A stretch of 64,000 nt of DNA from Isoetes taiwanensis (lineage: Eukaryota; Streptophyta; Lycopodiopsida; Isoetales; Isoetaceae): positions 174,753-238,752 of the forward strand of contig JAJEKV010000341.1 in assembly GCA_021234155.1 (NCBI GenBank), in the 5' to 3' direction. Positions 40,330 to 44,842 of this stretch are shown here, piece by piece; the stretch's first letter is position 1; every line of letters starts with the position of its first letter. A model generated the notes under the pieces. That model saw nothing but the letters and a program-made list of their open reading frames with translations. It was not told the origin of the DNA and searched no databases. Position numbers and translations under genes: made by a program.

Positions 40330-40770
40330 TAACATGTAGCAAAATAACAAGGTATTCCAGGGGAATTTAATATGGATATAATTCTTGAAACCATAGACCA
40401 TATCCCTAAAAAAATTCAATGAGTTATTATAAAAAAAATATAAAAAATAGTCGCGTTAGCTCACTGGTTAGATTGATTAAGGTAGTCTTATTAGGACATT
40501 GAATTATTTTGGTAGAGATTCGAGCTCTCGTATTTCATATTCTAAAACCTTAAGTGAAGCCGTATATACCATCAAAACCTTTGGCAAACTCGTATTTGAC
40601 ATCTCAAAATCATAGGCGCCCCCAATCATAAATGAGCATAAGCGAAACGAGAGGTGCCCAGACACTCCAACATACTGTCTGGGCCGTAGGATTGACAGAT
40701 CCGATGACTGTGGTAGTCTAGGGTGCACCTCGTTTAGAATATGTAGCAAAATCTTAGGGGCGCCTATGAT
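40330..40770 (+). repeat. Third copy of the SINE-headed unit, opposite orientation
   Basis: The plus strand carries the same string of landmarks as the minus strand at 37.1-38.0 kb: 'accatagaccatat' near 40390, then box A TAGCTCACTGG at 40457-40467, box B AGATTCGAGCT at 40516-40526, then 'ggcgccc', 'cgaaacgagaggtg' and a closing 'tagaatatgtagcaaaat'. Being complete at both landmarks and alone, it suggests the whole ~430-bp unit is the mobile or amplified entity. Confidence 0.7.
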
Positions 40771-40858: not shown

Positions 40859-40867
40859 TAAAAATAA
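40859..40867. repeat. MULE target-site duplication, left (9 bp)
   Basis: TAAAAATAA here versus TAAAAACAA at 44624-44632: one mismatch in nine. Nine bases is the characteristic footprint of Mutator-like elements. Confidence 0.85.
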
Positions 40868-41074
40868 GGGAAAATTCTAAAAATGCCCTTGTATTTTTGT
40901 CTAATTGTTAAAAAGCCCCTAATTTCATTGTATTTGTCAAAATGCCATTCTCTTTTGCACGTATCTTTGTTTTCAGCTGAACGGCGGTGGCGGGAAGTTA
41001 GATCCAGTGGACAAACGGCAATTCCAAACATCAATTTGCCTACGTCTGATGCACGAGCATGGATCCGGCAGAAG
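40868..41074. repeat. MULE left terminal inverted repeat
   Basis: 207 bp, matching the inverse complement of 44418-44623 with few differences. It includes the shared blocks 'ggcggtggcgggaagtta' and 'caattccaaacatcaattt'. Transposase binds such TIRs, and in MULEs they often also carry the promoter of the transposase gene. Confidence 0.93.
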
Positions 41075-41344
41075 GACCGGCGCCCAGCAAGTAATGACAA
41101 CCCTAACTTCTTTGAATTCTCCCACATTCGATTCATAAAAAGCAAGTCGATTCTTCACAAACAGGTAAGTTTTGGTTTTTGCATGCTTTTTATTTCTGTA
41201 TTCTTTCATCGTTGATAAACATTTTGGAGAAAGGGAATTCCGATAGTAGTACTGGCTTAAATTAACTTATGCACGTCTTTTACTGTGTTCTTTTTTTTTC
41301 CCTTTCTTTCCAATATTGCAGGAATTATTACAAGGGTTATCAAT

Positions 41345-43045
41345 ATGGAGCTAGTTAAAGGAACAATATTTGATACATTGATAGAGGTCAAGAATGCAGT
41401 TAGGAACAGATGCCATTGCATCATACACTGAATTCAAAGTTATTAAATCTGATAGATCACGATTTAGGGACAAATGCAGTGATGAGAATTGCACATGGCA
41501 CTCTTTGATTGGTGAAGGCCCAAGATGTATGATTCGTTCAATAGGAGTGCATAATTGTCGTGGCAACCAGCAGTTGAGCAATAAAGAAGTATCAGCTAGT
41601 TGGCTAGCAAGAAAATATCAGGAAAAGTTCAGAGAACATCCTCATTATAAGCCAACCGAGTTGATAGATGACTTTCGTAGAGAAGCTGGCATTACTGTAA
41701 CCTATACAGTTGCTTACAATGCAAAGGAAATAGCTATAGACATCATTAATGGAGACTACAGAAGAGGTTACAGAAAATTACAAGCCTTCTGTCAGAAGCT
41801 TTTAGAAAGCAATCCAGGAAGTAGAGTTGCTCTTGAGGAGAGCAATGGACGTTTTTATAGGTTATTCTTTGCCTATGGAGCATGTTTGACTGGTTTTTTG
41901 AGTTGTAGGCCTTTTGTGGGATTAGATGGCACTTTTCTAACTGGGAAATACCTAGGTCATCTCATTTGTGCTACAGGTATTGATGCCACAGGTAGTCTTT
42001 TCCCTATCGCATTCGGGGTCATTGACAATGAAAACACAGAGAATTGGGTATGGTTTCTGTAGCATTTACGCAATAGCTTGCAGTTGGACTCAAGTCTCAC
42101 ATTTGTATCAGATAGAGACAGAGGTTTGCAAGAGGCCCTTTATGATGTTTTTCCTGGCTTTCCAAATGCATACTGCATGAGGCACCTCGAAGCAAATTTG
42201 AAGAAAAAAATGCAACAACACTGAGTTTTTGCATTTCTTCTGGGAGGCTGCACGAGCAAACACAGTCCCTGAATATGAAGAGCAAATAAGTAAGATGAGG
42301 AATTCGAAAAATGCAGCAACAGATTGGTTATTAGAAACCACACCACCAAATAGCTGGGCTACTGCACACTTCCAGGGGCATCGATTTGGTCATTTGACCT
42401 CTAACATATCAGAATCTTTGAATTCTCTATTATTGAATGCAAGGGAGAAGCCTATAATTGCTATGCTCATTGATATTAGACAGGCATTGATGGAGAGGTT
42501 TCACATACGGGGTAATGAAGCGAAGCAAGCATGGCAATCTGCAGATCAGAGTGCACCATTTACTTTGGGTACCTGAAGAAGAGAAGTGCATAACAGAATC
42601 GACTAATCGTGCAAGGCAGTATAGAATTTTACCATCAGATGGAATTGTGTTTGAGGTAATCACCCCAGAGCACAGACGAATAGTTGATCTAGTGCACCAT
42701 ACATGTACTTCTTATGCTTGGCAACATAGAGGAACCCCATGCGCTCATGCTGTGGGAGCAATTTTATGGCTGAAGAAACGTCCACAAAGTTATGCACATC
42801 CTGGGTATTACCTGAGAGCATGGCGTGATGCATATGAAGGTGCAGTTTTTCCCTTTGAGGATGTGAGAGAGGACGAGGAGACCAATCTGAAACCTCCTGC
42901 TACACGTAAACCACCTGGTCGGCCAAAGAAAAAATGCATCCGTACTGAGGACCGCTTCAAAGAAATACGGCCATATCGGTGTTCTAGGTGTGGCCAATAT
43001 GGACGACATAATTGCAAGAGTTGCAGAAATGCGATCGCGGACTGA
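41345..43045 (+). pseudogene. MuDR-family transposase, frameshifted
   Basis: DDE-type cut-and-paste transposase. The first ATG at 41345 reads MELVKGTIFDTLIEVKN; a shift near 41394 leads to the main frame, with the N-terminal DNA-binding domain (SRFRDKCSDENCTWHS) and the catalytic core. First Asp is in FVGLDGTFLTGKYLGH, second in FVSDRDRGLQEAL after a TAG at 42060-42062. Shifts near 42220 and 42550 separate FWEAARANTVPEYEEQ and the SWIM zinc finger. That finger reads CTSYAWQHRGTPCAHA, where the usual C-x-C start has Ser for the second Cys. A final CCHC-like knuckle (CSRCGQYGRHNCKSC) has one extra residue. All the domains are present, but at least three shifts and one stop break the gene. Confidence 0.92.
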
Positions 43046-43799
43046 TCTATGGTACTGATGTATGTGTTCTTTCCGTCTAAAAGAAAGACTGATATATGTT
43101 AATGTTCATTTTATTGTTTTTGCAAAGTTTTGGTTGATGAAAAGTAATGCTGTTGAGGTTTAAGCAAAATCATGTGGTTATGAGAGAGCTGAATCATATC
43201 TTGTTTTTCTGAATTGTATCTTGTAGTAACCGAGCAAGACTTCCAGTTTATTATAACAGTTATTTTGTCATGCAAGCAACCAATTGCAAGGTTGACTTCC
43301 AGTATATTATAACAGGATCTTATCCTTCCTTTTTGCAGATTTGCTTGACAACAATTATGAAGTGGAGCTGCGACTCAGAGTCACATGGAATAATGCCATA
43401 AGGTGTAGGTTAGTTCAAGCCTCCCTTCTCAAGCACATTATTCATAGAAGCATCTTTCTAAAATAATCTTATGTGTATTCAGCTACGTGTTTGTAATAGC
43501 TCAGGAAAATGTGTCCTGCAAGCTACCAACTGCATTGTTTTCTTCTAGTCTGTTATAATTATGTGCATTTTACAAAAATAAGCCATGGATGCCATATCTA
43601 TATCTTGCTATCTCGGTTATGTTCTTTAAACTAATGTTCTTTTGTAGCCATTAAGGAATTAGAAAACCCAGTCTCTGATTACATACATGTATGGGCATAC
43701 AACTTTTCTGAATCATATCTTGTTTTTCTGAATTGTATTTGGAAGCACTTGTAAGTGCTTGTATTGTTTTTTTGGATTGCTTTTGGAAGTGCTTCAATT

Positions 43800-44417
43800 G
43801 TTTGGACCTGATTTTGACAGAGAAGAAAAGTTCTTTCTGCCCAATGGACCTGAACTTAACAAGGATGAAGAGGATACATGACTAAGATTACTGCTTCCAT
43901 TGGATAAGCTACTTCTTTTCAACCTTTTTGACAAAGAATATCTTTGTCTTCTTTTCCAAGATAAGAAACCCCATAAGCCAGAGTCAACTTCCAGAGTCAG
44001 CTCGAACAAGACTTCCCAAAGGAGAAAGTGCGCAACTTTCCTTACAGACATCTTCAGTTTGACACAAACCACAATCATTACAAAATGCGGTCCTGATTGT
44101 TTGAGCAAGGGGAAGATAGAAACATGCCATTTGGACAAGCTTGAGCACAAGGGATACAGATCTGTTGGGATGGAACTACACATAGGCTATTATCAGGAGT
44201 ATATATTCCAAAACTGCTAGCATTAAACTTATACTGGCCTTGTTCACAAGGAATTGCAGTGCACACACCTGGACTGAAAAACTGTGGTGGGGGCTAAAAC
44301 TGAGTTCCATTCCCGAAATAATCTACTAATAAGTCGGTCTCACGAATTCCACAAGTTACATCTGCAGAGGCAAGGGCTAAGAAATCTGACTTAATAGGCA
44401 CAGAAGATTGGTTAAAC
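43800..44417 (-). pseudogene. Captured CRINKLY4-type receptor kinase fragment
   Basis: On the minus strand, one frame from about 44410 to 44078 reads IKSDFLALASADVTCGIRET (end of the crinkly/RCC1-like propeller). After a TAG comes PPPQFFSPGVCTAIPCEQGQ, then YKFNASSFGIYTPDNSLC and CIPCAQACPNGMFLSSPC. After a one-base T-run insertion it continues CNDCGLCQTEDVCKESC. This is the propeller end, proline hinge and TNFR-like cysteine repeats of CR4 kinases, membrane receptors in epidermal patterning. A later part, KRSSLSNGSSNLSHV and LLSSGPLGRKNFSSLSK, may be the juxtamembrane region; the membrane helix and kinase domain are absent. The segment starts within a few bases of the right TIR and runs against the transposase. 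Confidence 0.88.
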
Positions 44418-44623
44418 TTCTGCCGGATCTGTGCTCGCGTATTAGACGTAGGCAAATTGATGTTTGGAATTGCCGTTTGTCCACTGGATCTAGCTTCCCG
44501 CCACCGCCGTTCAGCTAAAAATGAAGATACGTACAAAAGAGAATGGCATTTTGACAAATACAATGAAATTAGGGGCTTTTTAACAATTAGACAAAAATAC
44601 AATGGCATTTTTAGAAATTTCCC
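44418..44623. repeat. MULE right terminal inverted repeat
   Basis: 206 bp, inverse complement of the left TIR, ending GAAATTTCCC. The inner edge (CTTCTGCCGG) is where the captured kinase sequence begins. Confidence 0.93.
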
Positions 44624-44632
44624 TAAAAACAA
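44624..44632. repeat. MULE target-site duplication, right (9 bp)
   Basis: TAAAAACAA, partner of 40859-40867 with one mismatch. Confidence 0.85.
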
Positions 44633-44700
44633 TTCTTACATCATAATAAACAAATGACTGCTATGCTATTCGACTTGTACAAACACATAGCGATGAATTC

Positions 44701-44842
44701 GGCTCTCAATTTTTTGGAATCCAACACCGAAAAGGGAGCCAACATTTCACCCGAGAACTATTTATTCCAATCGGCTCTCGATTTTTTGGAATCCAACACC
44801 GAAAAGGGAGCCAATATTTCACCCGAGAACTATTTATTCCAC
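44701..44842. repeat. 72-bp tandem duplication
   Basis: Two head-to-tail copies starting 'ggctctc(a/g)attttttggaa' with three or four differences. They generate a repeated open frame that is not a gene. Confidence 0.85.

Follow-up and report, generated by a model that had tools for sequence, protein, structure and literature searches.

This study concerns a Mutator-like element (MULE) of 3,756 bp in the genome of the lycophyte Isoetes taiwanensis, located at positions 40868–44623 of a 64,000-bp stretch of DNA (the window; contig JAJEKV010000341.1, positions 174,753–238,752, forward strand). Between its terminal inverted repeats (TIRs), the element holds a broken mudrA-type transposase gene (MURA; approximately 41345–43045, plus strand), a linker without a recognised gene (43046–43802), and a captured 614-bp fragment of a CRINKLY4 (CR4)-family gene on the minus strand (43803–44416). 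The window lies on contig C43 of the genome assembly, and the genome searched comprised 1,658,258,908 bases in 1,110 contigs; C-numbers denote contigs and L-numbers denote loci fetched, as labelled in the analysis.

Boundaries of the element and its transposase gene

The left TIR (40868–41074, plus strand) and the right TIR (44417–44623, minus strand) are both 207 bp long and match in inverted orientation at 195 of 207 positions. When 207-mers were drawn at random from the window in 20,000 pairs, no pair matched at more than 82 positions, and a chance inverted repeat was rejected on that basis. Immediately outside the TIRs stand the two copies of the target-site duplication, TAAAAATAA (40859–40867) and TAAAAACAA (44624–44632). 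A sequence-only reading of the window had described a 9-bp duplication, which is indeed present but imperfect, with 8 of 9 positions matched; among 200,000 pairs of random window 9-mers, at least 8 matches occurred in 0.02%. Moreover, a search with the joined flanks revealed a related site on C1018 (~78% alike), where the flanks meet at a single target copy, TAGAAACAA, with no element between them, and four relatives of the element have duplications matching at 9 of 9 positions. The long TIRs and the duplication of about 9 bp are thus those of a MULE, for which the accessible part of one source gives target duplications of 7–12 bp (PMC9168764).

MURA in the window matches the Pfam family PF10551 (MULE) at E 5e-11, which passes the cut-off (1e-21 in a full-length relative), whereas its matches to PF03108 (DBD_Tnp_Mut) and PF04434 (SWIM) fall under theirs. 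In the related locus on C1037, all three domains pass. The claim that the element still holds a transposase was not supported: although about 1.7 kb of MURA is left, the frame is interrupted by an in-frame TAG at 42060–42062 and changes near 41400, 42205 and 42568. No intact transposase can come from the window copy, which is in that sense not autonomous. Open MURA frames, of 598 and 602 codons, are found in C1037 and C1077, respectively.

Captured fragment and donor gene

The fragment consists of two blocks that match a gene on C1107 (L011; hereafter the donor) at 97.5% and 96.1% DNA identity. Positions 43803–43980 correspond to donor codons 498–439 and positions 43988–44416 to donor codons 415–271, with a 7-bp filler (43981–43987) in between. 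A MULE with MURA sequence and a captured CR4-family fragment, as first proposed, is borne out by the TIRs, the PF10551 match and a donor at 96–97%.

The donor is a single uninterrupted frame of 804 codons that reaches beyond both fragment ends, and the term 'exons' used for the captured sequence is therefore inappropriate. The encoded protein combines RCC1_2 repeats in four stretches, a TNFR-like part (TNFR_c6, E 5e-4, under the cut-off) and a kinase domain (PK_Tyr_Ser-Thr, E 1e-44; residues 529–794 or 527–791), which is the architecture of the CR4 family, albeit with the TNFR_c6 match below threshold. The identification with CRINKLY4 itself, however, is not supported. First, the catalytic loop reads HGN rather than HRD; four further CR4-like loci were read, of which three have HRD and the fourth yielded no sequence at this place. 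Second, the TNFR-like part is 43–50% identical to that of seven other CR4-like loci of the same genome. The replacement of HRD by HGN suggests weak or no kinase activity.

The fragment itself takes in the TNFR-like part and a juxtamembrane stretch as well as some of the propeller; the transmembrane part is gone, and the filler stands in its place. Nor is it a kinase piece, since it ends at donor codon 498 and the kinase match begins at 527. The donor frame is broken within it by a TAG (44291–44293) and a one-base insertion. Its match to PF00020 (TNFR_c6) has an E value of 4e-5, under the cut-off, and its phmmer match, chain 7a0k_A (E 5e-9), is titled 'Predicted protein'. A junction alignment confirmed that the inner edge of the right TIR runs directly into CR4 sequence on the opposite strand. 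The four bases CTTC at this edge (44417–44420) are common to the TIR and the donor, and we read them as microhomology at a deletion that placed CR4 against the TIR; the same junction occurs in C1060, C1037, C1077 and C911. The linker on the other side is mostly matched in loci of the same family, and parts of it recur at 70–90% elsewhere (C1056, C1089 and others).

On C907 (L036 3810–3976; C907:10116309–10116475), we also observed a CR4-like relic that belongs to no MULE and in which donor bases 861–966 are joined to 1083–1144. It ends beside the base where the deletion in the window also ends, either by coincidence or as a hotspot; no credible MULE part was found around it within the 7 kb read.

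Copies of the element and their breakpoints

As the sequence-only reading had suggested, the parent gene and MULE copies with and without the fragment were sought in the genome, and all were found. Twenty loci of the MULE family were read; the search lists give lower bounds, as only the best candidates were scored. At least 100 bp of CR4 is present in nine of them, namely the window, C1060, C57, C1034a, C136, C710, C1007, C1063a and C1063b, with the provisos that C136 and C710, which hardly differ, may represent a single duplicated locus, and that C1007 is a right end only, the stretch read being without MURA. Six loci have a CR4 scar of 37–68 bp (C1037, C1077, C911, C1093, C1067 and C951); the two open MURA frames mentioned above belong to this group. 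The remaining five show none (C1045, C1041a, C1041b, C1027 and C1034b, the right arm of the last being read in part). Among the matches listed for more distant MULEs (72–80% in MURA), none was to CR4. Target duplications matching at 8 or 9 of 9 positions flank six of the 20 loci (9 in C1034a, C1037, C911 and C1067; 8 in the window and C1063a).

For six of the eight other carriers, ungapped identities to the window copy were obtained for both MURA and CR4: 96.6/96.9% in C1060, 95.7/97.2% in C57, 95.5/94.8% in C1034a, 95.2/96.2% in C136, 96.1/96.2% in C710 and 88.6/92.2% in C1063a, where CR4 covers 115 bp. The two values are alike across these carriers. Chimerism of C1063a was considered and not upheld, because its two values are, by eye, not clearly different. 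Two loci have unusual structures. In C1034a, the initial ~700 bp of the element lead into CR4 and a dirigent piece (see below), all in 1,625 bp, with 246 bp of MURA left and a 9/9 duplication. In C911 (L022 279–2513), the left end is an inverted copy of the right end, so that the CR4 scar is present in both, again within a 9/9 duplication.

Several breakpoints recur. In five of the nine carriers (C57, C1034a, C136, C710 and C1007), the first CR4 base is donor base 998 (numbered within the stretch used), and it abuts a common spacer of about 0.2 kb, which is oriented with MURA and opposite to CR4. This spacer aligns in three blocks with a gene found on both C1074 and C89, whose source frames are dirigent-like (PF03018, E 1e-20 and 5e-26). 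Since the gaps relative to the C1074 source fall within an open coding frame, they are read as deletions, and capture of an intron-free dirigent piece via an RNA intermediate was rejected for the same reason. The junction between linker and CR4 is identical in four of the nine carriers (the window, C1060, C136 and C710). The CTTC-edged deletion, by which the spacer was lost together with 86 bp of CR4, is common to the window, C1060, C1037, C1077 and C911, and C1093 ends at the donor base of this deletion too.

Other DNA occupies both non-carrier right arms that were searched. The arm of C1045 (L038 1923–2838) consists of PPR-gene DNA, matching the 3′ terminus of the gene at C1034:18028 kb, together with sequence of a C1070 locus, in pieces of both orientations. 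Three blocks of a locus on C941 are matched by the C1041a arm, which is 98% identical to its C1041b counterpart. Pfam found no domain in three open reading frames of the C1070 and C941 source loci. For the arm of C1037, no donor was found outside family-like loci; it matches chiefly loci with other family parts, and C446, read on account of this arm, gave no match to the window element.

Selection on MURA and the fragment

Codon comparisons show purifying selection on MURA and none on the CR4 fragment. Pooled over eight copies (leaving out C710, a near-copy of C136, and C907, which is not in a MULE), the CR4 fragments differ from the donor by 21 synonymous and 90 non-synonymous changes, giving a ratio of non-synonymous to synonymous change (pN/pS) of 1.18 and p 0.56 against neutrality. 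For MURA, 15 copies compared with C1037 gave 432 synonymous and 717 non-synonymous changes, with a pooled pN/pS of 0.45 and values per copy of 0.24–0.91 (0.34 in the window); neutrality was rejected at p < 0.05 in 12 of the 15. The contrast between the two is significant with all 15 MURA copies (Fisher p 7e-5) and when MURA is restricted to the six carriers of CR4 (175 synonymous and 308 non-synonymous changes; p 5e-4).

Further observations on the element and its surroundings

A GT...AG stretch at 41163–41326, upstream of the MURA start codon, looks by eye like a 5′ leader intron. Two copies have insertions in MURA: one of ~1.05 kb in C1060 (L012 796–1847), with a 7-base overlap at its edges, is perhaps a nested transposon, and one in C951 (L024 ~1410–2980) contains frames that look, again by eye, like a reverse-transcriptase piece. 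Outside the element, the left flank (40518–40760) is part of a high-copy repeat, of which ~240 bp is matched at many loci at roughly 78–93% and which recurs at short spacing in several places (C979, C1030 and C1042). Just beyond the right end, at 44699–44841, lies a 71-bp direct duplication with 97% identity and a spacing of 72; on C1018, where the related site lacks the element, there seems to be one copy only.

Discussion

We consider it highly probable that the CR4 sequence is a transduplicated fragment of a host gene in a once transposase-bearing MULE, in which it travels as a passenger. Breakpoints common to separate loci point to one capture, together with the dirigent piece, followed by deletions. 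Thus, a MURA-encoding element would have taken up ~0.77 kb of the CR4-family gene, antisense to MURA, between the MURA 3′ end and the right TIR, and ~0.2 kb of a dirigent-type gene would have come in with it; such copying-in of host sequence is usually ascribed to gap repair. The composite then moved with MURA to several places, as shown by the differing flanks and the several clean target duplications, and its copies would afterwards have lost pieces by deletion. In the lineage of the window, the dirigent piece would have gone along with 86 bp of CR4, leaving CR4 against the TIR, other copies would have kept only a CR4 scar, and C1034a would have lost most of its MURA to become like a classical Pack-MULE. 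The structure of C1034a is what one would expect of a Pack-MULE derived from a coding element by deletion.

A number of observations sit uneasily with this history. The carriers are not grouped on the MURA tree (FastTree, 14 rows; C911 and C57, which are partial, were left out), and non-carriers stand among them, so that a single capture would have to be followed by several losses or replacements, or else by elements exchanging sequence. The C1063 pair shows greater divergence, and its copies do not have the outer breakpoint; MURA of C1063a differs by 11% from the window copy, whose CR4 is only 2.8% from the donor, and unequal rates, exchange or a second capture would have to account for this. 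The scars are short, and those of C1067 and C951 (37 bp at 86–89%) are weak alone and rest on their place beside the TIR. No clean target duplication is seen at C1060, where the 9-mer on the left is repeated 10 bases beyond the right end; C951 has none at the ends called, and in most remaining loci both ends were not located. Regarding selection, MURA shows no significant constraint in C911 (0.91), C1027 (0.83) and C57 (p 0.07), the contrast between CR4 and MURA is not significant for the window copy alone (p 0.16), and the pooled ratios of 1.18 and 0.45 take changes common to several copies as independent.

Both the scatter of carriers on the tree and the divergent C1063 pair without the outer breakpoint would be expected if the same donor region had been captured several times independently, or if right arms had been transferred between elements by recombination. 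We regard such a history as unlikely, given that separate loci have identical breakpoints and that MURA and CR4 identities run together. Exchange between elements may nevertheless have occurred, above all in the C1063 pair.

Returning to a single capture with later deletions, what might the fragment do? Most likely it is a neutral passenger without function. If the right TIR fired, its RNA would carry CR4 in sense, with a stop codon after ~40 CR4 codons. Such RNA could in principle give rise to small RNAs acting on the CR4-family donor, with which the element shares 277 exact 21-mers and 246 exact 24-mers, or to a chimeric peptide, and captured sequences in maize elements have been reviewed, in the excerpt available, as reservoirs of small interfering RNAs able to silence their donors (PMC13317346). 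The neutral decay and the early stop in the coding frame argue against a functional fragment, which we hold to be quite improbable, although an RNA effect needs no coding and codon neutrality does not exclude it. Nothing in the analysis shows an effect on the donor.

That the right-arm segment is instead a native second MULE gene, a counterpart of mudrB, whose position it shares and which in MuDR is likewise convergent with mudrA, is refuted by the full host gene, 96–97% identical and extending beyond both fragment ends, and by the five of 20 family loci read that show no CR4; in addition, both non-carrier arms searched (C1045 and C1041a) match other genomic loci, and the frame is broken and evolves neutrally. 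The sequence-only reading had itself named a transposon-encoded origin, or presence in all relatives, as the outcomes that would overturn it; neither was found, as the donor lies outside the element and CR4 is missing from some relatives. In the part of a further source that was available, MURB is said to occur only in Zea (PMC3903597).

With CR4 and dirigent DNA, PPR-gene DNA and the C1070 locus, and the C941 locus, three payload sets have been found in the right arms surveyed; their presence suggests recurrent uptake of DNA at the interval that separates MURA from the right TIR. More generally, we give even weight to the idea that transposase-bearing elements capture repeatedly between the MURA end and the right TIR and that Pack-MULEs arise from them later by loss of MURA; C911 has CR4 in both of its inverted ends.

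Transposase-bearing transposons with host fragments have already been described, so this type of capture is known and not new in kind, and the earlier judgement that it is unusual is not supported. Within the accessible text of PMC2528002, some grapevine MULE families have ULP1 sequence on the downstream side of their transposase frame, in certain cases in opposite orientation, a grapevine Mutator family carries cellulose-synthase sequence, and Cactavine-5, a CACTA family, has a PPR fragment downstream of and opposite to its transposase frame. The available part of PMC13317346 likewise describes Kaonashi (KAONASHI-MULE) genes in Arabidopsis MULEs, and between them these two sources report ULP1-carrying MULEs in Arabidopsis, melon and rice. 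CRINKLY4 did not appear among the matches listed for the Mutator and Pack-MULE literature, and the open-licence papers, as far as their accessible text goes, yielded no account of a lycophyte MULE capturing genes; absence from print is implied in neither case. The main text of the Isoetes genome paper (PMC8566536) does not mention MULE, Mutator or gene capture.

The ULP1 MULEs resemble the present family in having host-derived sequence within a MULE and, in grapevine, in its placement downstream of the transposase. They differ in that ULP1 is found in many families and is called strongly conserved in eudicots, at least in the portions of those sources that were available, whereas the Isoetes fragment is short, broken and neutral, and comes from one donor gene in one family of one genome. 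The cellulose-synthase Mutator and Cactavine-5 have in common with it captured fragments of cellular genes in class II elements, and the likeness to Cactavine-5 extends to the sister copy C1045, which also has PPR-gene sequence in its right arm. The donors, however, are different, and Cactavine-5 is a CACTA element, not a MULE.

A Pack-MULE, according to Jiang et al. in 2004, reportedly carries, between the TIRs of a MULE, pieces of a single host gene or of several, and this the window element shares. With its host fragment between TIRs and a donor elsewhere, it is a Pack-MULE in the broad sense, the name being used for any MULE with a gene or gene fragments in the part available of PMC3903597. 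Under the stricter packFinder rule, by contrast, Pack-TYPE elements are non-autonomous, and any transposase hit leads to classification as autonomous and to exclusion, as set out in the accessible part of PMC8903248. The window copy, with ~1.7 kb of MURA, falls outside that definition, and only C1034a, with 246 bp left, might fit it. A survey rule that sets transposase-bearing elements apart would miss carriers such as those described here, so that definition accounts for part of their apparent rarity.

Finally, the seemingly autonomous Hvu_Abermu of barley also combines a transposase frame with an extra, possibly captured frame in the opposite direction (PMC9168764, in the part available). 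The origin of the extra frame is left open in that part of the source, whereas for the Isoetes family the donor, the breakpoints and a decay series have been identified. By bringing together donors, common breakpoints, coding carriers, a deletion derivative and scars, this lycophyte family makes the order of capture and loss readable, and its sister copies let one read how gene-carrying transposons may arise.

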